A stretch of 64,000 nt of DNA, taken from Bradyrhizobium xenonodulans (GTDB taxonomy: Bacteria > Pseudomonadota > Alphaproteobacteria > Rhizobiales > Xanthobacteraceae). The number at the start of each line of letters is the position of its first letter. The first letter of the stretch is position 1. The notes under the pieces are model-generated. The model saw only the letters and a list, made by a program, of their open reading frames with translations. It was not told the DNA's origin and ran no database searches. The stretch lies in NCBI RefSeq assembly GCF_027594865.1, contig NZ_CP089391.1:6726501-6790500 (forward strand), read 5' to 3'. Positions 9,141 through 40,482 of this stretch are shown here, piece by piece. The position numbers and the translations under genes were made by a program.

Positions 9141-9142
9141 CT

Positions 9143-9412: not shown

Positions 9413-9498
9413 TTTTGCCTAGGCGCGGTTGGCTCAGAAAGCGACGCGGCCCCGCCCGTCGCCCCGTCACCTAAGCCCATAGAGGTCCTCGGTCTGAG

Positions 9499-9588: not shown

Positions 9589-9650
9589 GCGGCCTGTCCC
9601 CAGCCGCCGCCGTTGATGCATTGATCGGTCAGCGGCGCGACCCTTGCGCC

Positions 9651-10013
9651 TTAGGCCGCCCCGCGAAGCGGTAACGTAAGTTGTAGGTCGAACCGCTTGG
9701 TCGCGTTCGCCTCGATGAAAGCGTGCAGTGCAGACGAAATCTCGGCATCCGTGTCAGTTGCACGTTGAGCGACTGCATCGGCCACGTCCGACGTCGCGTC
9801 CCGAGACCATCCTTCGATCGCGTTGAACGCCACGATCCGAACGGGATAGGTGTACTGCCCGGAGAGAAGGTGACGTAGGACCGTTTCAAGGTCAGTATCT
9901 TGTTCATCTGTCTCGCGCCATGCGCACCCGGCCCGCGCACCAAGATCTTCGAGCACAAGATAGACGTCACGGTCCAGCCGGTCGAGCGGCACAATCGACG
10001 GTGATTGACGCAT
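9651..10013 (-). CDS. Conserved hypothetical protein
   Basis: This is a 120-residue protein from MRQSPSIVPLDRLDRDVYLV. Conserved-looking blocks are ETDEQDTDLETVLRHLLSGQY and PVRIVAFNAIEGWSRDATSD. I recall this family as a widespread Bradyrhizobium hypothetical, often in several copies, with no known role. The start at 10013 is preferred over an in-frame upstream codon (10025) because it gives the usual MRxSPSIVP start. No membrane or catalytic signature is present. Confidence 0.65.
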   Translation of the reverse strand: MRQSPSIVPLDRLDRDVYLVLEDLGARAGCAWRETDEQDTDLETVLRHLLSGQYTYPVRIVAFNAIEGWSRDATSDVADAVAQRATDTDAEISSALHAFIEANATKRFDLQLTLPLRGAA

Positions 10014-10128
10014 ACGCAACTCCACGGGAACCGGGACAAAAACTACGATCAGGGCTGAGTTGTTCCACGCTGCGTAAAGAACGGAACGCCTGTCGATCGT
10101 TGCAAGTTACGAAAGGATAGGAGATGCC

Positions 10129-10302
10129 GTGTCCCAATCGGAAGCCGACCGGTTCAAGAGCAAAGCCGAAGAATGCCCTCGTCTAGCAGCCCAAGCTGAG
10201 AGCGACGCAGACAAGGAAGGTTGGTTGCGTCTCGCCGCGGAGTGGGACAAGCTGGCAGAGAGCGCGGCCGGTCAGAGCGGTATCTACGATCGTTACGAGT
10301 GA
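10129..10302 (+). CDS. Small hypothetical protein (57 aa)
   Basis: A GTG start follows a good ribosome-binding site (AGGAG within gaaaggatag gagatgcc). The peptide is VSQSEADRFKSKAEECPRLA followed by AQAESDADKEGWLRLAAEWD and a short tail ending YDRYE, a charged helical protein. I recall similar short helical proteins in Bradyrhizobium. The function is unknown. Confidence 0.55.
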   Translation: MSQSEADRFKSKAEECPRLAAQAESDADKEGWLRLAAEWDKLAESAAGQSGIYDRYE

Positions 10303-10418
10303 GGCGAGTTGGCCGTCCCGCCCGGACTGGCCGGCGCTCCGCGGCGACCCCGCAAGGCATCACACGCAGCCGCTGTCCTCAGTCGCCTCCTAACTGCACA
10401 TCGCTTGCCGATTTCGGA

Positions 10419-23692: not shown

Positions 23693-24567
23693 GCGATCGG
23701 CTCCGTAAGATCCTTCGATAGCTCGGGCTTCATCAGCCTGATACGATCCGACGCGTCCTCGAGAGCCCGGATCTCGGCGACCTTCTCGTTGCGCTCCTCG
23801 TCGTCCTTGATCTCCTCGGATTCGAACGACCCGCCCTGCGCGCTGAGGCCGTAGACACGCACGTCCCAGCGATCGGGACCGTTACGCAGATATTGATCGA
23901 GCAGCGGCAACTCGCTCGCCAGATACTGTTCGGGCGTGACGTTCTCGGGCTCGACCGTGTCCCATGCCGAAAGGATCAGGGCGAGACGGGTCGCCGGAGC
24001 GTTCAAGGCGCCGCAGCGAAACATCTGCAGCATCTCCACCAGTTTCACGGCCGTCGGAGCATCCTTGGGGTGCCATTCCTTGGGCTTCGCCGGCGTGCCG
24101 GCCGCTGCCGCACCACCCTTCAGTCCCGCGGCCTGCTGCGTCGTCTCGGCCACGCCGATCGGGCGTTTGATCTTGTCGGCATTGACGAACATCATGATGC
24201 CATCGCAATCGCGCAGAAGCTCTGCCAACCGCTGATCGCACTCCCTGGTCTCCCAGATCTCCTGGAACGACTCTCCGGAGAGATCGGGGAACGTCATCCG
24301 GACCTTGCGTGCCGCACCGTCCCTGAGGTTCATCGAGACGATCTTACCCGACGCGACTTCGGTGTGTATCTGCTCCTTGGCCTCGAGCCAGCGGCGCATG
24401 ATCGCATTCAGATGCGAGTGGTCAAGCCCGGTCAGTGTCTCGAAACTCAAGCGTGCGTTAGGATCACGCCTGTCGAACACGACGTACCACAACGCAGCCA
24501 GGAACGTCGTCTTTCCGGACGCCGGCAGGCCGCAGATGACGACCGATCCTCGAGGGGTTTCGATCAT
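23677..24567 (-). CDS. TRAFAC-type GTPase (DO-GTPase 1-like)
   Basis: This is a 296-residue P-loop GTPase. The start at 24567 (MIETPRGSVVICGLPASGKT) is fixed by an ATGA overlap with the upstream GTPase gene. The frame is open to 24717 but that lies inside the neighbour. Walker A is GLPASGKT (13-20). A switch/Walker B-like segment is TFPDLSGESFQEIW. A possible G4 motif is LSAWDTV in place of NKxD, so base specificity may differ. A spacer rich in Ala, Gly and Lys (GLKGGAAAAGTPAKPK) interrupts the domain. It is paired with a second, different GTPase, which is the defining feature of the double-GTPase systems. Confidence 0.8.
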   Translation of the reverse strand: MIETPRGSVVICGLPASGKTTFLAALWYVVFDRRDPNARLSFETLTGLDHSHLNAIMRRWLEAKEQIHTEVASGKIVSMNLRDGAARKVRMTFPDLSGESFQEIWETRECDQRLAELLRDCDGIMMFVNADKIKRPIGVAETTQQAAGLKGGAAAAGTPAKPKEWHPKDAPTAVKLVEMLQMFRCGALNAPATRLALILSAWDTVEPENVTPEQYLASELPLLDQYLRNGPDRWDVRVYGLSAQGGSFESEEIKDDEERNEKVAEIRALEDASDRIRLMKPELSKDLTEPIAWLTE

Positions 24568-25565
24568 TCGGGCGCCCCCTGCAATCGATTCATGAACCTC
24601 GTCGACGACGACACGTGAGAAGCAGCCTTCGGAACTACCAGCGCAACCGGCGCTTCCCAATAGGCCAACAGATCGGCGACGCCGTGCCCAAGCGGCAACG
24701 AAACGTCCGAAGGACATGCCGCGACCTCGAATGACCGGATCTCTCCGAAGAGGCTCGCGTGCAGCGCATGGAATTTCTCGACGATCTTCTCGAAATCGCG
24801 GCGCGAACGCCCCTTGTCGGCGGACCGCGCGATATCGTCGAACTTGGTGAGAACGATGGCGACACGCGGTCGTCCCATGACTCCGCCGCCGTCGACCAGC
24901 GCCTGCGCGATCGCGAGGATGTCGGCCCCGACCCTGCTCCGCGTCACGGGATCCACCAGTTGCCGGCCGTCGACCAGGAATGTGATCGTATCGGCCCGAT
25001 GAATCTCGACGAATTCCCGCACCACGCCCGTATCGTCGGGGGCGGCGCCGTAATCTTCGCCGTTCCGGTCCGCGACGACGAGATCAAGCGTGGCTCCGCC
25101 GGGCCGACACAACGCCGCATGGTAGAACTTGACCGTGGTCAGCAGCGTGCGCTCCGTCTCCGGCCGAGCGTTGCGGGAAACGCTGCGCGAGGGATGGCTC
25201 GCCCGCTCGAACGCGTACATCGTGCGCGATCCGGCGAACTCGAACGGACCAATCGGGCCGCGAAGGAATAGCTCGAAGATGGAGGCGATCAGCGTCGTCT
25301 TGCCGGCTTCCTTGGGCGCGACGACCGCGATGACGCGAGAATCGCCCCTACGCAGCAGCTGCGACGCCTCCTCCTGGTCCAGAAGATCTCCGGACGGAAG
25401 AACGATTCCGTGTCGTTCAGCCGGCGTATCCCCAGCCGTCGCCGTGGCTGCGAGCGGCTTACCGTAGTACGGGCAGGCGTTCTTCTCTAATCCCTCGACG
25501 CAACGGCCGTCGGTCTTCACCTTGCACGCGGGATTCGCGCATTGGATTGCTGCGGTCTCTGCCAA
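24564..25565 (-). CDS. TRAFAC-type GTPase with N-terminal Cys cluster (DO-GTPase 2-like)
   Basis: This is a 333-residue GTPase from a TTG start three bases after the previous stop. The first 35 residues hold four spaced cysteines (CANPACKVKTDGRCVEGLEKN then CPYYG), a likely zinc ribbon. The P-loop is VVAPKEAGKTTLIASIF, with Ala for the first Gly. Further motifs are LDLVVADRNGEDYG (DxxGE-like) and AIVLTKFDDIA (TKxD for NKxD, guanine recognition). The presence of two non-identical GTPases next to GAP1 supports assignment to the predicted double-GTPase conflict systems. Nucleotide hydrolysis has to be inferred. Confidence 0.8.
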   Translation of the reverse strand: MAETAAIQCANPACKVKTDGRCVEGLEKNACPYYGKPLAATATAGDTPAERHGIVLPSGDLLDQEEASQLLRRGDSRVIAVVAPKEAGKTTLIASIFELFLRGPIGPFEFAGSRTMYAFERASHPSRSVSRNARPETERTLLTTVKFYHAALCRPGGATLDLVVADRNGEDYGAAPDDTGVVREFVEIHRADTITFLVDGRQLVDPVTRSRVGADILAIAQALVDGGGVMGRPRVAIVLTKFDDIARSADKGRSRRDFEKIVEKFHALHASLFGEIRSFEVAACPSDVSLPLGHGVADLLAYWEAPVALVVPKAASHVSSSTRFMNRLQGAPE

Positions 25566-25568
25566 CGC

Positions 25569-26672
25569 CTAGCCCCCGAACTTCAGGCCGAGCCGCTCGC
25601 GATAGAAGAGATTGCCGAGCTCGACGCCCGGCAGGCTCGCGTCGGCTTCGATACCGGTCACGGCCGACCAATTTGCGACCCAGGACGTATCGTCGCCAGC
25701 CTCGAGTTTGCGGAGAACGGCGAAATGGAGTGGGCGGACGACAGGCGCCGGCGCGACCCCGTCGACGAGGCTACGAAGCAGCTCGATATCGACCGCGTTG
25801 ATCGCTGCGGCAATACCGGACTTCCTGCGTTCCTTCAGACCGGCCCGCGAAAGGATCGGCTTCGCCGACTCCGGCCCCGGAATGAATCGGACCGAATTGG
25901 CGACCTCGGTCGCGAAGACGATCGGTTGCGCGTCCGGCGGCACGTCGGCGAAGGGAATATCGAGCGACTTGCTGCGCGCGCCGTAAAGCCACCAGAGCAA
26001 CTGCAGTTCCTCATCCTGGATCACGACGTTCCAGTGAAGCGCGTTGATGGTATCGTTGGCCTTCGCCGCGATGTCGCGCGCAACCGCTTGCGCCTGGCCG
26101 GCGATGGCGTTCACTGCCGCGACCATGTGGTCCGGCGTCACGCCGTCCCTTTTGATCTTCTCGACAAGGTCCGCTTCCAGACTGAAGTCCCCGACCTTGT
26201 TCAACCGCCCAATGTCCGGCCGCTTCCGGCGAGCGTCCGAAATCCTCGCGATGGTCGCCTCGGATGCCCCCGCGAAGTCGTGGGGGAAGTCGGTCCGCCG
26301 CGCGCCGGCGAAGAGCGCGGTCAAGGTCGACAGCGCCGCCCAGGCCGCGATGTCTGTCGTGCTGTCGAGAACGGTCGCCAAAGCGGCTCCGCTCAGAACC
26401 TCGAGTTCGCGATCGTTTCCGGACATCTCGAACAGGTCGTCGGCGGCCTTGAAGTGACCGCGCAAGGATGCCAAGGCCTGGTCATTCGGTCGCGACTTGG
26501 TCTTCAGCAGTACGGCAAGCATGGTCTCGACGGCGGTGCGATCGGCGGCCTTCGCCAGCGACCAAACGCCCTTCCATCTCGCTTCCAGCTTCGTGCGATT
26601 CTCGGCGAGGTCGACCGCGCGATACCAGCGCGGGAACTCGTCCCTCATCGGTGGAACGGTCGCCTCGGCCAT
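25569..26672 (-). CDS. GASH-like all-helical protein of the GTPase system
   Basis: This is a 367-residue, almost entirely alpha-helical protein without signal peptide or catalytic motif, matching by context and composition the GTPase-associated system helical (GASH) proteins. Recognisable stretches are PRWYRAVDLAENRTKLEARW near the N-terminus and IQDEELQLLWWLYGARSKSL in the centre. The start shares one base with the stop of the metallophosphoesterase gene. It is probably an adaptor or scaffold in the complex. Confidence 0.7.
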   Translation of the reverse strand: MAEATVPPMRDEFPRWYRAVDLAENRTKLEARWKGVWSLAKAADRTAVETMLAVLLKTKSRPNDQALASLRGHFKAADDLFEMSGNDRELEVLSGAALATVLDSTTDIAAWAALSTLTALFAGARRTDFPHDFAGASEATIARISDARRKRPDIGRLNKVGDFSLEADLVEKIKRDGVTPDHMVAAVNAIAGQAQAVARDIAAKANDTINALHWNVVIQDEELQLLWWLYGARSKSLDIPFADVPPDAQPIVFATEVANSVRFIPGPESAKPILSRAGLKERRKSGIAAAINAVDIELLRSLVDGVAPAPVVRPLHFAVLRKLEAGDDTSWVANWSAVTGIEADASLPGVELGNLFYRERLGLKFGG

Positions 26673-27958
26673 CAGCGCTTCTCCCTCTTCTGGATCTCCC
26701 GATCCAATTCATCGAGCTGGCGGCGCTCGCCAGCCCTCAACAAGGCCCTACCGAACCGTTCGGCGAGCGGCAGATTCGCCTCGGCGGGCTCGATCAGCTT
26801 CAGTTTACGCGAGATGTCGCGCCTGTCGCTCATATCGAGATTCCAGAAGCGAAGTACGATGCTCCGGGCGCGATCTTCGGACATGACGGCCTCCATGCCA
26901 TCCGACGGCCGGTTCGCGACGGGGGGTGCCGCCGCCACCGCCGCAGCAGGCGGAACAGGATGGATATTCCGGAGCCGAACATCCCACAAATGGACGTCCT
27001 TTCCGTAATCGAGAATCGGCCGGAATCCTTCCGGGCTCATCTGCCACTCCAGCAAGTACGCCTCGACCGCCAGCTTCGGCTCTCCGGCGGTCTCCGCCTT
27101 CACGGCGAGCCTGATCAAGTTGTAGCCCGGACTCCAGCCCTTCTCCTGCCGATCCGGATTCACCGCGCCGGCCGAGAACGTCACGTAGTTCGGGTCGCGG
27201 TCGATCCGCTGGCGGTGCTTGTGGCCGAACAGGTGCACGGACGCCCGGTTCTTGACGTCGTCGGTGAAACGGTCTGCGTCGGTCAGCCAGTCCGGGGGAT
27301 GATGGCACATCACGAGATTCACGACATTGTCGACCGGATCGAGCGCCGTCTGGCGCGGCTCGACGTAGAGGTCTCGCTCAACGTCGTTCCGCCCCTCGGG
27401 CATATGCGACCCCGACAGGATGGTCGAGTTCAGGCCGTGGATGCGTAGCGTCACCCCCTCCGCAAGCGGCAGGTCAGCCTTCCAGAAGACGCGCTCGGGC
27501 GCGAAGATTGCGGCCGAGAAGCGGCCCGCGAAATCGTTGTAGGCTCTGATCGGCCTCAGGAGCGCCGGTCCAGTTTCCGCGTGCTGCAGCTGCCGCAGCA
27601 GCTCTCGCTCCTTGTTGGCGGCAATCATGATCGCGCGCTGCGCGTTCTGCACTGAGACATCCTTCTTAATGATGTCCTGGTCCACATCGTGGTTGCCGGG
27701 GATGACGTAGATCCGCGAATGATCGCAGCCGCAAGCGTCCGCCAGTTCGAACAGCCACTTCAGAGCCGCCTGGTACTCCTCGGGCTTGCCAGCGAAGGCG
27801 ATGTCGCCGCCGACCAGGATCGCTTCAACGGGGCCCAGCGTCTTTACCCGCTCCCGGGCATCCTGGATCAGCCTCGTCCGAAACGGTCGGTCTGGATCGC
27901 TTTCGGAATTGCAGACGGGGTGGCGGAAGTGAATGTCCGACAAATGAAGTAAAAGCAT
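26672..27958 (-). CDS. Calcineurin-like metallophosphoesterase of the GTPase system
   Basis: This is a 428-residue protein that would hydrolyse a phosphoester, probably a nucleotide or nucleic acid, with two metal ions. The five metallophosphoesterase motifs are present in order: LLHLSDIHF, GDIAFAGKPEEY, PGNHDVDQD, VMCHHPPDW and LFGHKHRQ. The C-terminal 130 residues are an extra region with a proline/alanine linker (HPVPPAAAVAAAPPV) and a helical tail. I chose the ATG at 27958 because AGGGAG lies about 10 bp upstream; an in-frame GTG at 27979 is possible. As the first gene of the operon it is the best candidate for the effector. Confidence 0.85.
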   Translation of the reverse strand: MLLLHLSDIHFRHPVCNSESDPDRPFRTRLIQDARERVKTLGPVEAILVGGDIAFAGKPEEYQAALKWLFELADACGCDHSRIYVIPGNHDVDQDIIKKDVSVQNAQRAIMIAANKERELLRQLQHAETGPALLRPIRAYNDFAGRFSAAIFAPERVFWKADLPLAEGVTLRIHGLNSTILSGSHMPEGRNDVERDLYVEPRQTALDPVDNVVNLVMCHHPPDWLTDADRFTDDVKNRASVHLFGHKHRQRIDRDPNYVTFSAGAVNPDRQEKGWSPGYNLIRLAVKAETAGEPKLAVEAYLLEWQMSPEGFRPILDYGKDVHLWDVRLRNIHPVPPAAAVAAAPPVANRPSDGMEAVMSEDRARSIVLRFWNLDMSDRRDISRKLKLIEPAEANLPLAERFGRALLRAGERRQLDELDREIQKREKR

Positions 27959-28166
27959 TCCGAAGACGCTCCCTGTCACCGATTACCGAGCAAGTTCTAC
28001 AACTTATTCGGGAATCGACAACATTTTCGGCAAATGGACTTTCTGAAATTCGCTTGGCTCTACAGCATCATAGATGGGCGATAGCGCTGTTCCCGTCAAC
28101 AACAGTCTCGGGAAAAACATCCGCCCATACTCGACTCTCATGTTCTTGATATGTTCTAATCAGGAA

Positions 28167-29843: not shown

Positions 29844-29864
29844 GAGCTAAGCGCGCTTAGCTCG
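29843..29864 (-). terminator. Perfect 22-nt palindrome at the end of the E2-like gene
   Basis: CGAGCTAAGCG and its exact complement meet without a loop and contain the TAA stop (29857-29859). It could fold into a short hairpin at the transcript end or be a protein-binding site. No T-run follows. Confidence 0.4.
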
Positions 29865-30591
29865 ACCGGGCAATTGCTTTTAGCGGGCATTCGAGCATGG
29901 TGCCGCAACATTGCAAACTGGACATCGAGCGCCAGAAGCGGTCGACCGCTGCGCGTCGTTCGAACTCGAGTTCTATCGGGCATCCGAGGCACTGGCACTC
30001 CCGTCGGAGGAGCGGTTTGCCGGTCCGGTGCTTGCGGCCGCAAAGGCAGGGACTCCGACCGTTCCGCAAGCGTCCGGTCGCCTTGTTGATCCTGGAAAGT
30101 CCCGCCGCGATCGGGCCGATACCGAACTCAACGGCGTCGCGATAGGCGGCACTGGCGCCGGTTTCGGCCGCCGCTTGCTCGGCGAGGAACTCGATATCGC
30201 CCGCATCGCCATGGGAGAGCTGGGCGCCGGAAGGCCAAAGTCCGGCCTCCGCAGCGGTCTCTTGGCAAAGCAGGAACGCGTGAAGCTTCGTCCACCAGGT
30301 CGCCGCGGTCGCCGAGTTGATCCCCTGGCCGGCCCGAAGACCTAGGCAGAACGAACCGTCAGCGTTGATGTGGCGCTCAGGACAAAACGTTGGCAGAGTT
30401 TTGCCTCTGACCCGTTCGTACACCGTCACCTCAGCAGCGAGATGCAGGACTTCCAGCTCGAACAACCGGGTGAAAGCCCCGCTGCTTCGCACGAGGACGG
30501 CGTCCACTTCGGCTGCGCGAGTGCCGATCCGGCGGAATTCGGCCCAAGGCGGAACAGTGTCGGCGATCGCGTCGAGGGCCACCGGCGCCAA
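29857..30591 (-). CDS. Prokaryotic E2-like protein with C-terminal SEC-C-like zinc motif
   Basis: This is a predicted ubiquitin-conjugating-like protein of about 244 residues. The E2 core reads LPTFCPERHINADGSFCLG, with the likely catalytic Cys82 preceded by a His-x-Asn-like element, then WWTKLHAFLLCQETAAEAGL. The C-terminus has Cys/His spacing of the SEC-C type (SPCLCGRKHRTGKPLLRREC, CLGC). No ATG is available near the cyclase stop. I used the TTG at 30591; the GTG at 30582 is an alternative. The open frame further upstream lies inside the cyclase gene and is discarded. It directly follows the tandem cyclase and is the third gene of that operon. Confidence 0.7.
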   Translation of the reverse strand: MAPVALDAIADTVPPWAEFRRIGTRAAEVDAVLVRSSGAFTRLFELEVLHLAAEVTVYERVRGKTLPTFCPERHINADGSFCLGLRAGQGINSATAATWWTKLHAFLLCQETAAEAGLWPSGAQLSHGDAGDIEFLAEQAAAETGASAAYRDAVEFGIGPIAAGLSRINKATGRLRNGRSPCLCGRKHRTGKPLLRRECQCLGCPIELEFERRAAVDRFWRSMSSLQCCGTMLECPLKAIARSS

Positions 30592-30599
30592 CCGATCGA

Positions 30600-32081
30600 T
30601 CAGCGCTTCGAACGCGCAGCGTGCGACCGAGCGGCCGGCTCGCTGCGCATGATCTGGACGGCCGGAGACTGAGAAGCGCCGAGAAGATCCGAAGCGGTGT
30701 CGAACGACATTAATCGTCCCGTCGCGATGATCCGTCGGACCGCGGCGTCGGCAACCTGCTGGGCGATGACGCCCAGCCGGATTCCGCTGCCCTCGATGCT
30801 CTGTTGCGTCCGCTCGGCATTGATCGTGGCCCGGCTGGCTGCGCACCGGACGCTGTCGTCGCCGCGATATCCCAGCCGGGTCATCGGCGTCGGACCATAT
30901 TCCACGCCGATAGCCAGGCCGATCGCCGCATCGGAATCCACCGCGTCGAGGCAAAGGTCGAACGACGATCGCATGCCGTTGGCGCAAATCACGGCCTGTC
31001 GCACGGAGCCGGGACCGTCGTCGGTCCGCTCGCCTTGCGCCACGCAGCCCTGGATGCAGTCACCCACGAATCTCACGCGCTTACCGCCGAAGTCGTCGTT
31101 CAGGACCGAGTTGAGCTCCTCGCGGATGACATGGACCGTCCTCACTGCCTTTGTGATTTCGACCGCGCCGCCCTCGATGGCCCGATCAACGAAGTCGGTG
31201 AAGCCGTCGATGTCGGCGAAGATCGACGCCATGCCCATGCGCACGGAGTTCGCCGGCGAGAGATCCGCGAATTTGACGCTGGCGAGCGGCAGCTCCGGTC
31301 GCTTGAAGCGAAAGATCGGCTCGACGGCGTCCTGAGCGACCTCATCGACCCTGCGCTCGAGGCTGTCGAACGCGAAGCTCCCCACCGCGTCGCGGATGTA
31401 GGTCTCGTCGAGCACCATCCGGCCGGCGGACTTGCGGACGGCGCCTGGCCGCGCCCGCTGCTGCGCGGTCTCGGTCAGGAAGATGCCCGCTTCGTCTTCG
31501 GCGGCGGCGAGCTTTGCCGCATGATTGGCAGGACGTCCGAGGAATAGTGTATCCTTCTCGTGCGAGCGGCCGGTCGTCATGGCCAGGCACCTGCCATGAT
31601 CGATTCCAAAGCGGATGCGGGACGGAAAGCCATGCGCTTGGCCGAGCCGTTCGGCGGCTTCCGAGAGCTTGCCCGCGAGAGCGACAGCTCGGGTGATCTG
31701 CGCCGCAGCGTCTCCGGCCGGCGACGTGATAACGGCGTGGAGCCGGGCGCCGTGATAGTCGACCCGGTCGCCGTCATCGTTATCCACGACGGCGTCCCAG
31801 ACACGATAGTGCATATTGAGGAATCGCAAGAGCCTGCGATGCGAGCCCTCCGTTTCGGAGCCGCCCTCAGCGACAAGACCGTCGAAGTCCAGCAACTGGC
31901 CGTAGAGGTGAACGCCCTCGACGAGGAAGGCCTGGCGGATCGGAAGACGACCGATCAGGCCGCTCTTGCGGACCGTGGTCTGGTCTCGCGCGGAATCGAG
32001 CGCGATGTTGCTGTCGACGGCCGGCACGGTCTTCAGATGCTCCCGGATCCTCGTCTTAGCCCGGTCCGCATTCCACGACAT
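30600..32081 (-). CDS. Tandem class III nucleotide cyclase, paralogue B (Pycsar-like)
   Basis: This is a 493-residue cytoplasmic protein with two cyclase-homology modules. The first carries VEGVHLYGQLLDFDGL and IRFGIDHGRCLAMTTG, ending FLGRPANHAAKLA. The second carries SIFADIDGFTDFVD (metal aspartates), RVRFVGDCIQGCVAQG and DDSVRCAASRATINAE. The residue that selects the base in adenylyl cyclases, Lys, is Arg here, and the usual VNxAAR is VRCAASR. This suggests that the product may not be cAMP. It is strongly similar along its length to paralogue A (36974). The gene order is CNB-cyclase, this gene, E2-like gene, all tightly spaced. Pyrimidine cyclases of Pycsar immunity are the closest concept I can name, not a proven match. 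Confidence 0.8.
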   Translation of the reverse strand: MSWNADRAKTRIREHLKTVPAVDSNIALDSARDQTTVRKSGLIGRLPIRQAFLVEGVHLYGQLLDFDGLVAEGGSETEGSHRRLLRFLNMHYRVWDAVVDNDDGDRVDYHGARLHAVITSPAGDAAAQITRAVALAGKLSEAAERLGQAHGFPSRIRFGIDHGRCLAMTTGRSHEKDTLFLGRPANHAAKLAAAEDEAGIFLTETAQQRARPGAVRKSAGRMVLDETYIRDAVGSFAFDSLERRVDEVAQDAVEPIFRFKRPELPLASVKFADLSPANSVRMGMASIFADIDGFTDFVDRAIEGGAVEITKAVRTVHVIREELNSVLNDDFGGKRVRFVGDCIQGCVAQGERTDDGPGSVRQAVICANGMRSSFDLCLDAVDSDAAIGLAIGVEYGPTPMTRLGYRGDDSVRCAASRATINAERTQQSIEGSGIRLGVIAQQVADAAVRRIIATGRLMSFDTASDLLGASQSPAVQIMRSEPAARSHAARSKR

Positions 32082-32093
32082 GAGATAGCCTCC

Positions 32094-33206
32094 TCAGCAC
32101 GAATAGACGTCGAGCTCGACGCCATGCTTCACGTTCGCTTTCACAGGACCCCGGAACGTTTCAGGGGCGATGCCCGCTTCGACGGCAAGTTCCCGAAGAA
32201 CCGGGCTAACGCGGACCTGACCCAGATCAGGTGACTTCGCCTGTTCGTATCTGGCCGCCGTGTTGACGGTCGCGCCGAGCACGGTCACGGCGATCCTCTG
32301 CTCGGCCCCAAAGTCGCCGAACGCGACATCTCCGGCGTGCAAGCCGATGCGGATTCCGATATCGAGGCCATTGTCCGTGACGTAGCGCCCGACCTCTTCG
32401 GCGATCGTCGTCGCGCATCGGATGACGGCGGCGGGCTCGACGCGCTCGCGTTCAGCGGTGTCGATGAACCAATAGGCCATCACGCCGTCGCCCATGAGCT
32501 TGTCGATCTGCCCGCCAGCCTTTCGGATCAGATCGATCTGGAGGGAACAGAGTCGATGAAGGTGAGATGCGACTTCACCGGAGTCCTTGCCGGTTGACCA
32601 GACGCTGAAGTTGGCGATGTCGCTGAAGAACACGATCGCCTTTCGGGGCTGGATCCGCGGAGTCTGTCCAGCCGCAGCGACCTTAACGAGGCCAAGCGCG
32701 TCATCGTCGGAGAACCGACGCAGAAGATGTTCCTGTTCGGCGACCGAGATGCGCAGCTCCGAACGTCCCTGAGTCGCCTGCGCCAACTTCATGTTGACGA
32801 CGTCGGCAAGCGTCAGAACCCAGATGGTTTTCTCGGGATCGGTCAATCGCTCCTGAAAGGCGGCATCGATGAAGAACAGCCGGACCGGGCCGATGGCCTT
32901 GACGTCGGCAGTCCGGGCGCCGTTCTTTCCGGCAAGGACATGCAACAGACCCTGCTCGCCGAACATCTCGCCTTCGCCACGGAAGGTGACGCTCTGATCG
33001 TGGGCCCGGACTTCGACCTGACCACTGAGAACCAGCCAGCAGCCACTCACCCGATCCCCGCGGCGGCAGATCATGTGGTCGGGGTTATAGTCGTCCACCC
33101 GGCAGATTGGCTCGCGCAAGATCGCTGCCCGAATTAGGTCCGGCCTCGGACAATGCTGCTTGAGAAACCGCTCGAGCACTCGATCGACATTAGCGGCAAA
33201 GACCAT
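32094..33206 (-). CDS. Cyclic-nucleotide-binding domain fused to class III cyclase
   Basis: This is a 370-residue protein: a CNB domain (about residues 30-125, WLVLSGQVEVRAHDQSVTFR, GEGEMFGEQGLL) followed by a catalytic cyclase domain. Active-site residues are complete: Asp196 in FFSDIANFS, Asp240 in KLMGDGVMAYW, base-recognition Lys236 and Thr308, and Asn315/Arg319 in VNTAAR, so it is probably an active adenylyl cyclase. It may be tuned by binding a cyclic nucleotide, possibly one made by the tandem cyclases. I chose ATG 33206; ATG 33266 (MVRKRISRR) is an alternative, and the open frame to 33341 would cover the operator-like repeats. It is divergent from the XRE regulator. Confidence 0.82.
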   Translation of the reverse strand: MVFAANVDRVLERFLKQHCPRPDLIRAAILREPICRVDDYNPDHMICRRGDRVSGCWLVLSGQVEVRAHDQSVTFRGEGEMFGEQGLLHVLAGKNGARTADVKAIGPVRLFFIDAAFQERLTDPEKTIWVLTLADVVNMKLAQATQGRSELRISVAEQEHLLRRFSDDDALGLVKVAAAGQTPRIQPRKAIVFFSDIANFSVWSTGKDSGEVASHLHRLCSLQIDLIRKAGGQIDKLMGDGVMAYWFIDTAERERVEPAAVIRCATTIAEEVGRYVTDNGLDIGIRIGLHAGDVAFGDFGAEQRIAVTVLGATVNTAARYEQAKSPDLGQVRVSPVLRELAVEAGIAPETFRGPVKANVKHGVELDVYSC

Positions 33207-33274: not shown

Positions 33275-33341
33275 CTGCTACTCCGAACATAGGAACCTGT
33301 TGCCGCGAGTCAAGGACGGGATATGCTGCTATACCGAACAA
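33275..33341. promoter_or_regulatory. Pair of operator-like direct repeats between divergent genes
   Basis: CTGCTACTCCGAACAT (33275-33290) and CTGCTATACCGAACAA (33326-33341) agree at 13 of 16 positions and are 51 bp apart, about five helical turns. They lie between the CNB-cyclase operon and the XRE gene. The HTH protein encoded next door is the natural candidate to bind them. Confidence 0.55.
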
Positions 33342-33356
33342 GTAAGGGCGAATTGC

Positions 33357-33665
33357 GTGGCTGACACCATCCGCGATCGCATTAAGGCGCTGAGAAAAAA
33401 GGCGAAATTGACCTTGGACCAGCTCGCCGACCGAGCCGGCTTGAGCAAATCCTATTTATGGGAGCTCGAGAACCGGGAGTTGCCCCGCCCGTCCGGGGAG
33501 AAATTGGCCGGGTTAGCAAGGGCCCTTGACGTGACCGTCGACTACTTGCTGGGCAGCGAAAATCTCGAATCGGCGGAGGACAAGGCCTTCTTCCGCGAGT
33601 ACCAGGCGATGTCGCCGGAAGCGCGCGCCCGGCTCCGCAAGCTGGCCAAGGCCCTGGACGAATAG
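33357..33665 (+). CDS. XRE-family HTH regulator
   Basis: This is a 102-residue Cro/C1-type repressor. The GTG at 33357 is chosen because AAGGG lies about 9 bp upstream and VADTIRDRIKALRKKAKLTL is the normal beginning of the domain. The HTH is LDQLADRAGLSKSYLWELEN, then EKLAGLARALDVTVDYLLGS. A helical tail follows. It is co-transcribed with an ImmA/IrrE peptidase 7 bp downstream, a pairing in which the peptidase usually inactivates the repressor after a signal. It probably controls itself and the divergent cyclase operon. Confidence 0.88.
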   Translation: MADTIRDRIKALRKKAKLTLDQLADRAGLSKSYLWELENRELPRPSGEKLAGLARALDVTVDYLLGSENLESAEDKAFFREYQAMSPEARARLRKLAKALDE

Positions 33666-33672
33666 GCCGCTC

Positions 33673-34521
33673 ATGGACTTCGAGGGTTGGGGACCTCGGC
33701 GTTGGGCGAGCCATTTCAACCAGATGCTGAATCTGGCGAACCCGCCTGATCGATACCGTTTCGACATCAGTGCGCTCGCCATGGAGACGTCGTGCTCCCT
33801 TTTCCCGGAAGATCCCATCACCAAGGTCGGTAAAGAAGAGCTCGATGGATTCGCAGGCGCATTAGTGCCGTCCGCGTCGAGGACCAGGTGGGGGATCGTG
33901 TACGGCGCCGGCCAGTCAAGGGGCCGTCGCAGGTTCACCATCGCTCACGAATTCGGCCACTACCTCCTGCACCGGAAGAAGTACCCTGACGGGATCCACT
34001 CCAGCGAAGCCGGCATCGACGGACGGACCAGGCTGCAAATCGAAAGAGAAGCCAACGAGTTTGCCTCCTGGCTTCTGATGCCTCTCGACGATTTCAGGCG
34101 GCAGGTGCCTCCGACCGGCAAGCCGGACTTTGACGTGTTGGGGGATTGCGCCGAGCGGTATGATGTGTCGCTGGTCGCTGCCATCCTTCAGTGGCTCCGC
34201 TATACGGAACGAAGAGCTCTGCTCGTCGTCTCCGTAGACGGTTTCGTCAAGTGGTCGTGGTCGAGCGAGCGGGCGTTGACGACCGGGGCCTTCATCCGCA
34301 CCAGCCGTGGCCCGGTGGAGCTACCGCCGGCATCGGCGGCCGGTCGGGAACTGTTCACGCCGGAGGCCCGGTCCGGTGTCGATCACCCGACCGGCGTCTG
34401 GTTTGACGAGCCGGCGCGCGAACTCTCATTCAAAAGCGAGCGCTACGACGCGGCGTATACACTTCTCCACTTGGGAGACGATCCCGGCTGGAACCGCGTT
34501 GCGCGTCGGCACTCACTCTGA
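33673..34521 (+). CDS. ImmA/IrrE (M78) metallopeptidase
   Basis: This is a 282-residue zinc peptidase. The active site HEFGH lies in RRFTIAHEFGHYLLHRKK, with the third ligand Glu probably in REANEFASWLLMP. The C-terminal half (LLVVSVDGFVKWSWSSERAL, GVWFDEPARELSFKSERYDA) is a sensory-type extension. Such peptidases cleave the partner XRE repressor in ICEBs1 and Deinococcus IrrE/DdrO, leading to derepression of mobile or stress genes. Here it forms an operon with the XRE gene and would provide on-demand induction of the cyclase locus. That last point is inference. Confidence 0.87.
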   Translation: MDFEGWGPRRWASHFNQMLNLANPPDRYRFDISALAMETSCSLFPEDPITKVGKEELDGFAGALVPSASRTRWGIVYGAGQSRGRRRFTIAHEFGHYLLHRKKYPDGIHSSEAGIDGRTRLQIEREANEFASWLLMPLDDFRRQVPPTGKPDFDVLGDCAERYDVSLVAAILQWLRYTERRALLVVSVDGFVKWSWSSERALTTGAFIRTSRGPVELPPASAAGRELFTPEARSGVDHPTGVWFDEPARELSFKSERYDAAYTLLHLGDDPGWNRVARRHSL

Positions 34522-34544: not shown

Positions 34545-34760
34545 GTCGAAGCGGTGGATCCAGGACAATGTCATGTTCGAGCTCGGGCTGTTGATGGGAA
34601 AGCTGACCAGACATCGGTCGATCCTGGTCCATCCCAAGGTAAGGTAGATCCCGTCTTCAGGCATTCACCGTCATCCATTTCAGGAGACGATTCCAATCTT
34701 TGTCGATGGGCTAAAGCCGGCGTGCGATCAGCTCCGCCGGATCGTCAAGATGCGGAGCGC
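34545..34760 (+). pseudogene. Remnant of a TIR-like (PF10137-type) effector
   Basis: A plus-strand frame after the peptidase gene reads RWIQDNVMFELGLLMGKLTR, HRSILVHPKVR, stop, then IPSSG and in the same frame ETIPIFVDGLKPACDQLRRI. The DNVxFELGLxxGxL block is the hallmark of predicted nucleotide-binding TIR-like proteins, and the tail resembles their C-terminal helix. The N-terminal two-thirds is missing and a TAG at 34645 interrupts it. If correct, the locus once had a TIR-type effector that has died. Confidence 0.5.
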
Positions 34761-34768
34761 AAGGACGT

Positions 34769-35275
34769 TCACTTTTTGAATAGACTTCGCAGGCGGGAAA
34801 GCAATCCCGGTGTTTTCCGTTCGAGCAAGACCACGACACGCTCCGGAGGTAGACCGGCCCGGAACAACGTCGCCGACATCTTCAATGATCTGCGAAAAAA
34901 CAACCGCACAATGATGAGGACGGCAAAGTTCGCGCCTACTTCTGGATCTTCGACGATCTGGTACATCGCCTGGATATCGTTTCGGCTGGGCACGGGCTCG
35001 AACGTCGGATGCGAATGCCACTCTCCGATATAGTTGAAGCGACGATAGTTGCCGCCCGTTCTAGCAAAGAAATCCGATAAGAAAGCTTTGCTCTGCTTCG
35101 GATCCCGGATGAAATGCATCGTCGTACCGCCCGACCTCTGCACCGAAAGTTCGACTATCCGGAAAGTCTCGCCGCCCACGTGCTCGGCGACGATCACGCC
35201 GCCGATCTCGTTGCGTCGCCCCCGCAGCTCGCGGCGCAGAAGGTCAGTTATCTTGCGCGGTAGGATCAGTTCCAC
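34769..35275 (-). CDS. JAB/JAMM isopeptidase (Cap3-like)
   Basis: This is a 168-residue metalloprotease of the JAMM type that would remove the conjugated partner or process its C-terminus. The ligands fit the EX(n)HSHPX(n)SXXD motif: Glu23 in NEIGG, His87 and His89 in GEWHSHPTFE, Asp100 in PSRND. A GTG start at 35275 overlaps the E2-E1 gene by 32 bp, so it is translationally coupled. In type II CBASS the corresponding protein (Cap3) reverses priming of the signalling enzyme by the E1-E2 protein. The last residues (LSRLRSLFKK) form a basic tail. Confidence 0.85.
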   Translation of the reverse strand: MELILPRKITDLLRRELRGRRNEIGGVIVAEHVGGETFRIVELSVQRSGGTTMHFIRDPKQSKAFLSDFFARTGGNYRRFNYIGEWHSHPTFEPVPSRNDIQAMYQIVEDPEVGANFAVLIIVRLFFRRSLKMSATLFRAGLPPERVVVLLERKTPGLLSRLRSLFKK

Positions 35276-36977
35276 CGATCTTGTCCTTCAGCAACTCAAG
35301 CAACGTGGCGATCTCCGTGACCTTTTCCTGGTCCGACAGCTCGACGACTTCAGGCTCCGGCGGCGGCGGACCGACATCGATCGGATAGGTGTCGAACGGC
35401 TGAGAAAACACCGAATCCGCGCCAAGGCCGATCGCATAGACCGAGTTGGGAAATAGAGACGGGCCACGATCCACCAACAGATCGATGGCGAACCGGGCAG
35501 CGTGGGCCGCGATCACGGAAACGTCCGCGTCGTCGGCGGTCATGGGTACGTCAATGCCGGTGCCAATCGCTTCGTATGGCCGATGCGATCTTCTCGGCAA
35601 CGATCCCCTTTCGCCGAACCAGTTCTCGATGGCGCGCCGCATGAATGACGGTGGTGGCTCGATCCCCGGTCGATACCTGGCGATCAGGCCGCCGAACCCG
35701 CCGCCGAATACTTCCGCCCAGATTACGGGCTTCTTCGCGGACGCGGCCACTGCCGAGAGCAGATTCAGCACATTGGGATCCGCCGTCCCATCCAGCATGA
35801 GGTCGCATTCAGATATTCGTTTCAACATGGCATCGGCACTCTCGTTGGCCTCCTGCCCGCCAAGAGGCACGCGCCATTGCAAGACGTCAATCGACGGGTT
35901 CACGAACTGCAGACGTCGAGCGAGCGCTGGCACCTTGTGCACTCCGGCGTCCCGCCAATCGAGGTCGTTCCGGACCAGGTTATCGGGAAGCAGAATATCG
36001 TCATCGACGAGCACGAAACCGCCGACACCGGATCTCGCGAGCATGGTCGCCGCCTTGCTGCCGAGCGACCCGCACCCGATGATCGCGACCTTCTTTGCCG
36101 CGAGCACCGAATGAGCGGCGTCGAGACGCGTCGCTTCGGGCGGAGGCGATATGACGGCGACATCCACGACCGAGCGCTTTTTTCTGTCGAGGAAAAAGAC
36201 CGACAGCTCGGAGCCGTGCACGATGAAACCATACCTTGCTTCGAGCGTGTTTCCGACGGCAGCAAACCCGCTGTCGAACTCGTCCAGGCTTTCCGTCGTA
36301 GGCGGCGTATCGGTCTCATCCCATCGGCATATCGGCACGCGGCGTTCGGTGTATTCGGGCCCCAACTGCGACGGGACGGTGGGATCCGTCCATTGCGTGC
36401 CGTCGGCCAGCGTCACCTTGTCGACCACATGGACGACGGATTCCTTGTGATAGAGGGACACAAGGTTGGCTTCGAGCGAAGCGCGCAAGGGAAGCTCGCT
36501 AAGCAGGGCGCGAAAGGTGCGCGTCAGAAGATATCGGCTATATCGGATGCGGAGGCCTTGTCCGAGGCTTACGACGTGACGCGAGGGCGCGTCGCCTAAC
36601 TCGTCACCTCCCGGATTCTCGGTCACGAGGAGCTTATGACAACTCTCTATCAGATCTCTGCCGGTGTTGTTGGCGGTCCATGTGTCCGGACCGTATTCAA
36701 GGCAGAGCTCGCCTCCGGCACCGAATTGATGCTCCGACCATCTGGCGGTATCCCCGCGCGGAAACACCGACGGCGGGGTATGCGGAAACATGTCCGGATA
36801 TTGGAGGTAGATCGGGTAAACCCGGCCTCCGGCTCCGATCTCGGCGTCGAGTACTAGACGAAGGCGAGCGTCCAGCCGCCAGGCCGTTACGGCGAACCAG
36901 TCGACCTCCTGAGCGAGAATTTCGATTCCTTGCCGCTCCGCGCGGAACCGAGCGACGTCCGTTAGATACCAGCTCAC
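35244..36977 (-). CDS. E2-E1 fusion protein (ThiF/Cap2-like)
   Basis: This is a 577-residue fusion from a GTG that overlaps the cyclase stop as GTGA. The N-terminal E2 domain has catalytic Cys92 in GAGGELCLEYGPDTW, after YPIYLQYPDMFPHTPPSVFP. The E1 adenylation domain has KKVAIIGCGSLGSKAA (nucleotide loop at 301-306) and VLVDDDILLPDNLVRND, then GGGFGGLIARYRPGIEPP. Only one cysteine (in SECDLMLDG) is found after the nucleotide loop, so a canonical crossover-loop E1 cysteine is not obvious. In CBASS the analogous Cap2 attaches the CD-NTase C-terminus to targets. Here the upstream partner is a tandem cyclase. The open frame beyond the GTG is antisense-like noise and was dropped. Confidence 0.86.
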   Translation of the reverse strand: MSWYLTDVARFRAERQGIEILAQEVDWFAVTAWRLDARLRLVLDAEIGAGGRVYPIYLQYPDMFPHTPPSVFPRGDTARWSEHQFGAGGELCLEYGPDTWTANNTGRDLIESCHKLLVTENPGGDELGDAPSRHVVSLGQGLRIRYSRYLLTRTFRALLSELPLRASLEANLVSLYHKESVVHVVDKVTLADGTQWTDPTVPSQLGPEYTERRVPICRWDETDTPPTTESLDEFDSGFAAVGNTLEARYGFIVHGSELSVFFLDRKKRSVVDVAVISPPPEATRLDAAHSVLAAKKVAIIGCGSLGSKAATMLARSGVGGFVLVDDDILLPDNLVRNDLDWRDAGVHKVPALARRLQFVNPSIDVLQWRVPLGGQEANESADAMLKRISECDLMLDGTADPNVLNLLSAVAASAKKPVIWAEVFGGGFGGLIARYRPGIEPPPSFMRRAIENWFGERGSLPRRSHRPYEAIGTGIDVPMTADDADVSVIAAHAARFAIDLLVDRGPSLFPNSVYAIGLGADSVFSQPFDTYPIDVGPPPPEPEVVELSDQEKVTEIATLLELLKDKIGGTDPTAQDN

Positions 36978-38524
36978 GCAAAGCCGCCCGGCTTCGTCGG
37001 ACCTGCCGGCCGGTCGGGGAAGCTTAGCGGCGCGGCGGGCGACGATGCCGGCTTCAGAAGGCTTGCTCCCGCAGCGGTCTTGACGGCGCGCGCGACCGTG
37101 TCGTTCTTTCCGGCCATCCCGTTGAGCGCCGTTTCGTAGTCCAGGTCGCCGCGAATGCGCATGTCGCCGAAGAGCGCATGCACACCGTGACTCGATTTCG
37201 AGTAGGCGTTCGCCCCTATGGCGGTTTGATTGCCCTTGCAGCGGCCCTGCTCCTGCTCGGAGTTCAGGATTCCGCGACTGACAGCACAACGGACGAGCCC
37301 GCCCTTCATGCCGAGGCGCGTCACCGTGATCGGCCCGTACTCGAAGCCAATCTGAAGCCCGAGGCTGGAAGCGTCGGTTCCCATGTCCTTGAGACGCTTC
37401 AGCGCGATCTTGAAGCTGCTCCGCATCGCGGCCGCGCATAAGGTCATGCTGCTGATGGTCTCAACCGCGTCGGTCGTCTGCGCGGTCCCTTCGGCCAACA
37501 CGCCGTGAATGCAATCCCCGATGAATCTAATCTTTCGGCCCTCGAAGTCCTCGTGCAGCACTGCATCCAGTTCCGATCGCAGGACGTGCAGCGCGCGCAC
37601 GACATGTTTCGCGCCCGCGTCGGTTCCCATGTTGGCTCCGACATAGACAGTGAAGCCATCCAGGTCGCCGTAGATCGAGGCGGCATCCTGCCGCCGCGAA
37701 TTCTTCACCGACAGAGTCTCGATATCCAGGGTGGAGAATGGAGGCGTATGGCCTGAAAATACGAAATCACCGATGGGATTGTTCTTCAGATCCTCAGCCC
37801 AGTCCTTGACGATACCGTCGACCGTCACGTCGAGGCGGGCGGCCTGCTCGCTCTTCGCGATTTCTTCGGCGTTCAGCGGCGTCTTGTCGACATCCTGCGC
37901 TTCGGCAAGGCCGATCGCCTTCCGCGCTTCGTTGGTCAAGAAGATGCCCTGCGCGGAACCGCCGCCCGCGCGCTTGGCGGCATGGTTGGCCGGCCGTCCG
38001 AGAAAGAGCGGCTCGCGGTGACCTCTCCTTCCGTTGTTGACTGCGAGCGCCTTGCCCGTGTCGATACCGACCCGGACCTTGGCCGCAGGATGATCGGCGT
38101 CCTCGCCGGTGCGCGCCAGGACGTTGATGATCAACTGTGCGGTCGCCACGGCACGATGAACGCGCTTCGCCTCGTCGTCGTATGGCTTAGTGAAAACGGT
38201 GTGAAGCCGCTGATTGTGGAAGTCGACGAATATCGATTCGACGGCGCCGATGATACGGTGCGCCGCGCGATAGTGCATGTTCAGGAAGCGGAGCGTGCGC
38301 TTATGGCAGGTCTCTCCCTCGACCGTTGTGACGTTCAAAATGTCCTTCAGGTTCAGGATATCGGCATACAGGTGGACGCCATCGACGCGGTACGCCGTGT
38401 TGCCTGACAACCCCGACAGGTCGGTTTCGCGGACGTATTCCTTGATCTCGATATCCTTGAGAGGCAACGAATCGATCTTCGCGTCGATCCGTTTGGTCGC
38501 GCGGCCACTATTCCAAGTACCCAT
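36974..38524 (-). CDS. Tandem class III nucleotide cyclase, paralogue A (Pycsar-like)
   Basis: This is a 516-residue protein, first gene of the cyclase/E2-E1/JAB operon. The start at 38524 (MGTWNSGRATKR) aligns with paralogue B (MSWNADRAKTR). Module 1: VDGVHLYADILNLKD, RVGIDTGKALAVNNG, LFLGRPANHAAK. Module 2: Asp287/Asp289 in SIYGDLDGFTVYV, Arg333 and Asp337 in RFIGDCIHG, then GGLVRCAVSRGILNSE. The base-selecting Lys of adenylyl cyclases is Arg. The C-terminus ends in a flexible proline-rich tail (PASSPAAPLSFPDRPAGPTK, PGGFA). A Gly-Gly-Phe-Ala end is of interest because Cap2-type enzymes act on the partner's C-terminus. No cyclic product can be deduced with certainty. Confidence 0.83.
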   Translation of the reverse strand: MGTWNSGRATKRIDAKIDSLPLKDIEIKEYVRETDLSGLSGNTAYRVDGVHLYADILNLKDILNVTTVEGETCHKRTLRFLNMHYRAAHRIIGAVESIFVDFHNQRLHTVFTKPYDDEAKRVHRAVATAQLIINVLARTGEDADHPAAKVRVGIDTGKALAVNNGRRGHREPLFLGRPANHAAKRAGGGSAQGIFLTNEARKAIGLAEAQDVDKTPLNAEEIAKSEQAARLDVTVDGIVKDWAEDLKNNPIGDFVFSGHTPPFSTLDIETLSVKNSRRQDAASIYGDLDGFTVYVGANMGTDAGAKHVVRALHVLRSELDAVLHEDFEGRKIRFIGDCIHGVLAEGTAQTTDAVETISSMTLCAAAMRSSFKIALKRLKDMGTDASSLGLQIGFEYGPITVTRLGMKGGLVRCAVSRGILNSEQEQGRCKGNQTAIGANAYSKSSHGVHALFGDMRIRGDLDYETALNGMAGKNDTVARAVKTAAGASLLKPASSPAAPLSFPDRPAGPTKPGGFA

Positions 38525-38836: not shown

Positions 38837-39154
38837 ATGGGCAAGGACGAAAGGACTCGGATCGAGGCGTTGGGGTCGCCAGATCGCACGGAAACGCCGC
38901 GGGCCACGAAGCGCCGTCGCAAGAACCGTGGCATGCCGCCGCCCGCGCCGTTCGATATCGATACGCTTCCGGGCAGCTCTAATTTGACGGCATTGGAGGC
39001 GGCTGCCGTTATCCGGCGCACGCCCGGTGCGCTGGAGCAGTGGCGGCGGGATCCGAACCATTCGCTGAAATGGCGCTACGTCGATGGCCGGCCGCTCTAT
39101 CGTGTCGACGCGGTGCGCGACTATCTGGCCAAGTGCGACAAGACCACTACCTAA
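38837..39154 (+). CDS. Small excisionase/AlpA-like DNA-binding protein
   Basis: This is a 105-residue protein with a basic start (MGKDERTRIEALGSPDRTET, TKRRRKNRG) followed by a winged-helix-like segment, NLTALEAAAVIRRTPGALEQ, WRYVDGRPLYRVDAVRDYLA. This domain order is common in MerR/AlpA/excisionase-like proteins next to P4-type integrases. GGAGG lies very close to the chosen ATG, so a slightly different start is possible. It ends just before, and is convergent with, the integrase gene. Confidence 0.7.
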   Translation: MGKDERTRIEALGSPDRTETPRATKRRRKNRGMPPPAPFDIDTLPGSSNLTALEAAAVIRRTPGALEQWRRDPNHSLKWRYVDGRPLYRVDAVRDYLAKCDKTTT

Positions 39155-40482
39155 GACGCCTCAGCCGCATAATGCTCACGGAGGCGGCCGAGGAGCTCGG
39201 CCTTGATTGGGTCAAGCGGATTCGTCCGCTGAAGGCGCACGATTTTGCCGACCCGTTTCGCGCCAATCAACTCCGCAATGTAGTCGTGAGCCGCTTCGAA
39301 CGCCATCTTGCGGATGATCCACTGTTCGTCGTGATTGTAGACCTGATCGATTCCGCTAGGCTTTTGCCCAACACACAGCCGCTGGATTTCGTTGTCGTAG
39401 CCACAGCGTGACATGATGGTGCGCAAGCTGCGCCTTAAGTCATGCATGGTGAACTTGGCGACGCTCGCTTCCTTGACCAGACGGTTGACCATCTTGGTGA
39501 AGCCGGACATCTGACCGCCGGTCTTTGGTGATGGGAAGACATAGTCGGAGGTTGCTCGCTGGAAATGTTTCGCGGCCGTGAGGACCTCGTCAACCAGGTG
39601 AGTGCGCGGCACATCGTGGTGCAGCCCCATCTTGGTCCACGCCGCATCGAAGGTGATCCGATCGTCCATGATGTGCTTTCGCCACTCGATCATGGTAGGC
39701 TCGCTGCGGCGCGGGCCGCCGAGCAGGCACATGCGTGCCAGGAGACCGAAAGCGCCGAGCTTGCCGGATGCATCCCAGACCTTGATGATTTCCTCATCGG
39801 TCAGCGCGCGGCCCTTCGTTCGGCGTCCGACCCTTTGCGCCCGGGTTTCCTTGGGCGCGCGATAGCCGGCGAGCACGTTGTGCTCGACATAGCCCTCGCC
39901 GACACACCATTCGAGCAAGGTATGCACGTGCTTGCGCAAGTCCTTGGCTGCACCGCGCTTGCCGGTCTTGGCAATCTTGTCGACCGCGGCCATGATCTAC
40001 CGTCGCGTCAGGTCCCCTACGCCGCTCTCGGCGTGATCCTTGAGCCCGCGCCGCAGTGCCGACATTGCTGGCTTCCAGTTGACGACTTGACGTTCGGTCA
40101 AGGACATCTGGTAGGGACCATCTTCAACAATGAGGGCCGCGAGCGTGGTGCGCTGCTTCTCGGCTGCTTGTTGCCGCCTCGCCTCGCGCTTCGGGTCGTT
40201 CGGGTCCAAGCCCTTGACGACCTCGCCTGCGGCGATGGTGGCGGCCTTGCGCGCGGCCTTCTCACTATATTTGGGCCACGCGCCGAGGGTCTTGCGCTGG
40301 GTCCCCCTCACCCCCGGCTTGGTGAAGAGGTAGACCCAGGTCCGGCCGCCGGTGGCGCGCATGCGCAAGGCCAAGCCGGGCAGCTTGTCGTCGTGGAGAT
40401 AATGCTGCGCCTTACCCGGCGGCAGCGTTGCGTTGCGGATCACCGTATCAGTGAGTGTCAGCTGGTTGGCCGGCTCCGTCAT
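39151..40482 (-). pseudogene. P4-type tyrosine integrase interrupted by an amber codon
   Basis: The frame from MTEPANQLTLTDTVIRNATL runs through the DUF4102-type arm-binding domain (LPGLALRMRATGGRTWVYLF) to LTRR, meets TAG at 39997-39999 and continues in the same frame with IMAAVDKIAKTGKRGAAKDL and the catalytic domain. Catalytic residues are present: Arg in GGPRRSEP, His-x-x-Arg in MHDLRRSLRTIMSRCG, and the Tyr probably in DQVYNHDEQ. A single change would restore the 443-codon gene. A re-start at ATG 39991-39993 would make only the core and catalytic domains. The gene reads away from the tRNA-Val fragment at 40803. Confidence 0.85.

Follow-up and report, generated by a model that had tools for sequence, protein, structure and literature searches.

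We analyzed a 64,000-nucleotide (nt) window of the Bradyrhizobium xenonodulans genome (positions 6,726,501–6,790,500 of NZ_CP089391.1, part of one 8.28-Mb contig), in which three overlapping minus-strand genes encode a tandem class III cyclase, an E2–E1 fusion, and a JAB/JAMM isopeptidase. From its sequence, we consider it likely that this locus is a long-form Pycsar (pyrimidine cyclase system for antiphage resistance) module regulated like type II CBASS (cyclic oligonucleotide-based antiphage signaling system), i.e., one in which the cyclase would be conjugated and released, and that it gained a cassette made of a cyclase tail, Cap2, and Cap3. The three open reading frames (ORFs) exist as proposed in an initial annotation of this locus: the GTG start of the E2–E1 gene overlaps the cyclase stop as GTGA (4 nt), and the JAB and E2–E1 genes overlap by 32 nt.

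Family searches bore out the identity proposed for each protein in the initial annotation. The cyclase, PycC1 (36974..38524, minus strand), matched Pfam Guanylate_cyc in two stretches (E 7e-10), the PADLOC PycC model PDLC00762 (E 2e-211), and PDB entry 6yii (E 6e-168), placing it with PycC of clade A. Residues D287 and D337 of its second domain, which bind metal in class III cyclases generally, and N180 and K184 of its first domain, likewise assigned from this class, are kept in 48/48 aligned rows, a pattern consistent with one composite active site built from both domains. The E2–E1 fusion (35244..36977, minus strand) is Cap2-like, with E2 Cys92, an E1 glycine loop, and a candidate E1 Cys391. 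It matched Pfam ThiF (E 1.2e-21) and, over its full length, PADLOC E1-E2 PDLC00855 (E 4e-189), while E2-E1mid scored slightly below its cut-off (24.3 bits for 27) and the top PDB match, Cap2, extended across the E1 part only. With three near-duplicates set aside, all 19 homologues in the alignment keep the E2 cysteine. The third gene (34769..35275, minus strand) encodes a Cap3-like JAB protein with a Prok-JAB match (E 1.2e-12), whose E, HSH, and S..D motif residues are invariant in 12 aligned sequences (two near-duplicates left out). Pfam scans of ten window proteins gave no match to a CD-NTase (cGAS/DncV-like nucleotidyltransferase) family, SMODS or DncV-like, as had been anticipated, and the lack of a CD-NTase ruled out CBASS proper.

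Next, we surveyed clade-A cyclases and their neighbors. With the window genome included in each count, the cyclase model retrieved 4 of 398 genomes in the phylum sample (E <1e-100), 15 of 391 in the family sample (E 1e-60), and 6 of 367 in the order sample (E 1e-30); at E 0.001, 176 of the 398 phylum genomes matched, the best after the top four at 3.5e-12. Plasmids contributed 28 records, of which 26 were used (H5 and H7 were omitted as apparent duplicates). Together with one viral contig, this gave 54 ORFs, corresponding to 53 cyclase genes since one is split by an insertion sequence; the 53 ORFs outside the viral contig form 44 clusters at 90% identity. An E2 gene lies ≤100 nt downstream of 52 of the 53 cyclase genes, and the 53rd stops at a contig end. 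Thirteen of these 52 loci are long (E2–E1, with one gene spanning the record start, L113/L117) and 39 are short (E2 only, including L079, which is E2 only by annotation, as two genes). Among the 13 long loci, JAB was found in 10 and an intact-looking gene for an effector with a cyclic-nucleotide-binding (CNB) and a TIR domain in eight; an intact CNB-gated effector is retained in relatives such as L052 (Mesorhizobium) and L087–L091. Three further loci found through their E2–E1 genes (L001, L003, and L004, whose contig recurs as L087) stand outside these counts. The neighborhood survey called for in the initial annotation thus revealed the cyclase–E2/E1–JAB order beyond this genome, with a first gene of cyclase family. 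Chance adjacency of the three genes was discarded on account of this recurring order.

Searches from the E2–E1 side gave a complementary picture. In the family sample, the E1-E2 model detected 10 of 382 genomes at E 1e-40, eight of which also hold a clade-A cyclase; in the other two (G415 and G445), a CD-NTase-type gene precedes E2–E1. In the class sample, it detected 2 of 385, the window genome and G1342, which has a CD-NTase partner. Relatives on plasmids (E 1e-20) amounted to 128 records, 92 of them from Klebsiella, and a nucleotidyltransferase gene is annotated under or beside E2–E1 in most of the 60 plasmid matches listed. Among viral contigs, there was no E2–E1 relative and a single cyclase contig (L121). 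We dismissed the strong PADLOC E1-E2 match as proof that the combination of cyclase and E2–E1 had been catalogued, because two relatives with a CD-NTase partner outscore the window protein with this model (703 and 702 vs 628 bits).

The proposed conjugation tail consists of the 29 C-terminal residues of PycC1 (36977..37063, minus strand; SLLKPASSPAAPLSFPDRPAGPTKPGGFA), with the pattern SLLK...LSFPDRP..P.KPGGFA. The GGFA end singled out in the initial annotation is present, the tail terminating in KPGGFA. These are the same six residues reported at the end of the Bacillus cereus type II CBASS cyclase, whose terminal Ala was located on PspA lysines by mass spectrometry, and immunity by that system was abolished by changes at C91 (E2), C403 (E1), and A331 (PMC11153139). 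A conserved Gly/Ala is described as ending cGAS in operons where Cap2 and Cap3 are full, but not in the remaining architectures of that study (PMC10097602). All 15 long-form cyclase rows, two near-duplicate pairs included, end in Ala (13) or Ser (2). In the tree set, a GF[AS] end occurs in 13/14 long rows and 0/34 short rows, and R-x-H/Y within the last 30 residues in 29/34 short and 0/14 long rows. In alignments, short-form plasmid homologues (55% identity) extend to about residue 483 of 516 only, and a long-form Mesorhizobium cyclase extends to the C-terminal end of PycC1.

We then compared these tails with those of CD-NTases from six E2–E1 loci (L072, L073, L116, and L118–L120), the CD-NTase identity resting on Pfam SMODS or DncV-like matches for the four that were scanned, on a nucleotidyltransferase annotation for L118, and on place and sequence for L073. 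The tail of the Sporosarcina CD-NTase (L119), SLLKNAVEPSLSFPDRPVKPNKPGGFA, matches the window tail. Scored against the six, 13 of 15 long-form tails beat all 3594 other ORF C-termini, which were taken mechanically as controls, and none of 34 short-form tails did so, the margin being narrow (52 for the lowest passing long tail vs 51 for the top control). The window tail scored 99, vs a mean of 33.6 and a maximum of 50 for shuffled versions. Both the terminal Ala and a CD-NTase-like tail are therefore present in PycC1 by sequence. The type II CBASS likeness extends to gene spacing: in 19/19 pairs from both cyclase families, the E2–E1 gene starts either within the end of the cyclase gene or right at it. 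Since the tail codons directly precede the E2–E1 start, the tail, E2–E1, and JAB make up one contiguous stretch of DNA.

On the cyclase tree, 13 long forms make up a clade (99/97) inside a group of 25 rows that also holds 12 short forms, and L055 is a separate, long-branched long form. This suggests that E2 only gave way to E2–E1 plus JAB a single time, L055 apart, and the association between tail type and E2–E1 corresponds to one or two evolutionary events. On the E2–E1 tree, from which L055 was left out, cyclase-linked and CD-NTase-linked rows are split by one change with weak support (75/86); because this tree is unrooted, the direction of exchange is one that we infer. A type II CBASS operon was probably the source of the tail, E2–E1, and JAB, which would have arrived in one piece and taken the place of an older E2-only partner. 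These patterns suggest that the control cassette is able to pass from one kind of alarm system to another. More tentatively, and with somewhat less than even confidence, the tail, Cap2, and Cap3 could be seen as a mobile cassette indifferent to cyclase fold. Recombination late in a cyclase gene would then carry all three from the CD-NTase of a CBASS to the class III cyclase of a Pycsar, and a Pycsar with E2 only would become reversible and dependent on E1. The long and short forms of the window would work as a pair, in which a CNB-cyclase (see below) took over as reader once the TIR effector was lost.

Several observations weigh against reading the locus as a Pycsar module regulated like type II CBASS. 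The window copy lacks an intact effector. The E2–E1 of L055/L106 is divergent and without JAB, and L091 is also without a detected JAB. On the tree, the link between tail type and E2–E1 comes down to two label changes, one of them the divergent L055; two of the 15 long tails (L075 and L055) fail the tail test, and G, A, or S ends 9/34 short tails too. For the window proteins themselves, no NCBIfam model matched PycC1 at E 0.01, and the NCBIfam Cap3 model gave the JAB protein 35.3 bits for a cut-off of 200. The predicted E2–E1 structure is poor (mean pLDDT 60), so that the E2 half lacks confirmation by fold. Finally, the candidate E1 cysteine column is Cys in 15 of 19 rows, C391 of the window among them, and does not align with any Cys of the solved Cap2. 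In the Sporosarcina E2–E1, C394 is the sole Cys of the E1 half and falls in the same column as C391, which may thus correspond to B. cereus E1 C403.

In the favored reading, i.e., a Pycsar module under type II CBASS-like control, the tandem cyclase, a uridylate cyclase by homology, would itself be what is conjugated. Its C-terminal Ala would be adenylated by the E1 half of E2–E1, the cyclase chain would be handed to E2 Cys92 and from there to a partner's lysine, and conjugation would prime or localize the cyclase until the JAB protease cuts it free. The enzymes may instead modify another protein, for instance one of the phage or the CNB-TIR effector, with the cyclase merely an operon neighbor, an alternative that we find quite improbable. 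In its favor, Bil is reviewed as attaching a ubiquitin-like protein to the phage central tail fiber (PMC12948488); yet no ubiquitin-like gene was found among the scanned operon proteins of the window (the rest of the genome was not searched for one), the overlaps of 4 and 32 nt leave no space for one in the operon, and the same tail type accompanies E2–E1 in two unrelated cyclase folds. In the favored reading, infection would lead to cyclic UMP (cUMP), which in intact relatives would bind the CNB-TIR effector and cause it to destroy NAD+ in defense of the cell. By homology with PycC of clade A, clades A–D being reported to synthesize cUMP (PMC11224242), cUMP would be the product of PycC1.

The window copy is a long module that has lost its effector. 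In L001, a Bradyrhizobiaceae metagenome-assembled genome, JAB and capP flank a CNB-TIR gene (cNMP_binding and CAP12-PCTIR_TIR). What the window retains of it is a stump with an in-frame stop (34558..34776, plus strand), corresponding to the last 78 residues of the L001 protein (50% identity to residues 267–344); as the gene persists only as this stump, the copy is effector-less. CNB-TIR is likewise reduced to pieces in L084 (genome G655) and L002 (Bradyrhizobium sp. CSA207). The window genome held no other good CNB-TIR match, merely two weak ones over the CNB part, and no PycTM match. The coherent unit with a conjugation-ready tail put forward in the initial annotation is upheld, the order recurring across genomes and plasmids and the tail matching CD-NTase tails, with the amendment that the effector has been lost here.

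That description was also incomplete, as the stump, capH/capP, and a second cyclase–E2 module had not been listed. Downstream of the long module lie an XRE repressor that is CapH-like (33300..33665, plus strand; PADLOC capH, E 1.8e-27) and an ImmA/IrrE protease that is CapP-like (33673..34521, plus strand; Peptidase_M78; PADLOC capP, E 1.6e-64). Divergent from these is a short module, all on the minus strand: a CNB-cyclase, i.e., a CNB domain joined to a single class III cyclase (32094..33206; cNMP_binding, Guanylate_cyc; PADLOC PycC PDLC00734), whose start is inferred within an ORF open to 33341; PycC2, a second tandem cyclase (30600..32081; Guanylate_cyc; PADLOC PycC PDLC00762, E 2e-156); and a stand-alone, short-form E2 with a Cys-rich C-terminal domain (29857..30609, exact start not fixed; E2-ntca, E 3.5e-19; E2-Crich, E 2.8e-9). 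The composite order of cyclase, E2–E1, and JAB, then capP/capH, then CNB-cyclase, cyclase, and E2 also occurs in L084, L002, and L001. CapH and CapP are described as a DNA-damage-responsive control pair of immune operons, Pycsar being among the operons so regulated (PMC13373217).

With its TIR effector reduced to a stump, the window module would be either decaying or signaling to another reader. Decay, in which the cyclase, E2–E1, and JAB are drifting leftovers of a module whose effector is gone, is in our view somewhat unlikely: the stump with its stop, the pieces in L084 and L002, and an in-frame stop in an adjoining integrase all fit with it, while all eight genes of the composite locus are open. 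Ratios of non-synonymous to synonymous substitution rates (dN/dS) between the window and L084, both of them effector-less and separated by few substitutions, cut both ways. Those of E2–E1 and the stand-alone E2 (0.46 each) fit with drift, and against it stand those of PycC1 (0.18), JAB (0.27), capP (0.12), capH (0.08), the CNB-cyclase (0.16), and PycC2 (0.17).

If the module does signal, the most plausible other reader would be the CNB-cyclase in the short module next to it. This CNB-cyclase may even be the working output, binding the cyclic nucleotide of the tandem cyclases and then amplifying it or burning NTPs, although we judge this rather unlikely. The CNB-cyclase retains its metal aspartates and Asn/Arg in the alignment, i.e., its catalytic residues, and the 12 CNB-cyclase loci of the surveyed set have no detected intact CNB-TIR or PycTM within the stretch examined; against such a role, L001 holds a CNB-cyclase together with an intact-looking CNB-TIR gene, and gene position points to another effector in L081, where a Tle1-like hydrolase (3039–4325) comes directly after E2, and in L115, where a DUF2235 protein (9056–10327) is encoded two genes past the cyclase–E2 pair. 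A Tle1-like or DUF2235 protein is a possible effector where TIR or PycTM is undetected. A single-domain class III cyclase distinct from the tandem one lies near an effector gene in L075, L077, L080, L082, L083, L085, L090, L097, L100, L107, L111, and L113, so that these twelve loci hold two cyclases; both metal aspartates are kept in the 11 aligned rows (L111 left out). A WYL-domain gene lies beside the CNB effector gene in L083, L099, L102, and L109–L112, where capH/capP were undetected.

The long-form module can be set against several known systems. It shares with Pycsar clade A the tandem cyclase family, many relatives of which carry CNB-TIR or PycTM genes, but the window has E2–E1 plus JAB rather than E2 alone, a CD-NTase-type tail, and an effector stump. 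With type II CBASS it shares the E2–E1/JAB family, the tail type, and an E2–E1 start at the cyclase stop, whereas its cyclase is class III instead of a CD-NTase and the effector of its relatives has a CNB domain. The adjoining short module is laid out, like short type II CBASS with E2 only (PMC11153139), as cyclase then E2, but has a class III cyclase and belongs to the short forms with mostly R-x-H/Y tails. Finally, Bil and Bub also employ ubiquitin-like conjugation machinery in (putative) defense operons (PMC13373217, PMC12948488), from which the window locus differs in having no ubiquitin-like protein gene found.

The initial annotation knew of no named system of this exact composition; the cyclase itself is nonetheless of a named kind, clade A PycC. 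Structure 6yii is the clade A PycC of Pseudomonas aeruginosa, and this clade is characterized by two consecutive cyclase domains (PMC11224242). The cyclase of the P. aeruginosa plasmid pycTIR–pycC locus L053 matches 6yii across all 514 residues, and an E2 gene (E2-ntca, E2-Crich) follows pycC at 9488–10303 (plus strand), although PLSDB, with its incomplete gene table, omits it. The Pfam name E2-ntca may stand for nucleotide-cyclase-associated, and ubiquitin-like ancillary genes may be mentioned in Tal 2021, so that the link to E2 is possibly not new. The passages on Pycsar and ubiquitin consulted in the literature did not tie Pycsar to E1, E2, or JAB, the consulted text of a 2006 survey of bacterial E1/E2/JAB operons did not contain the word cyclase, and no mention of a tail shared by cyclases and CD-NTases was met in these passages.

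If the favored reading is correct, ubiquitin-like control would extend to Pycsar, which is described as a cyclase plus a receptor (PMC11224242). Finding this tail and these enzymes with a second, structurally unrelated cyclase would suggest that the enzymes recognize nothing but the tail. The purpose of cyclase conjugation in type II CBASS is described as still debated (PMC11153139), and the locus would offer an independent system for finding a common target and purpose.

The flanks of the locus carry further genes. On the far side of PycC1, a tyrosine integrase gene (39151–40482, minus strand) has its in-frame stop near 39995 and possibly lies at an island boundary. A search for an att repeat of the 3′ end of tRNA-Met gave no exact match of ≥14 nt in window positions 21000–64000. 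On the other side, a predicted GTPase-associated system (21647–27979, minus strand; GAP1-N1, DO-GTPase1, GASH, and GAAD-metallophosphoesterase) adjoins the cyclase locus, such systems being regarded as conflict systems.

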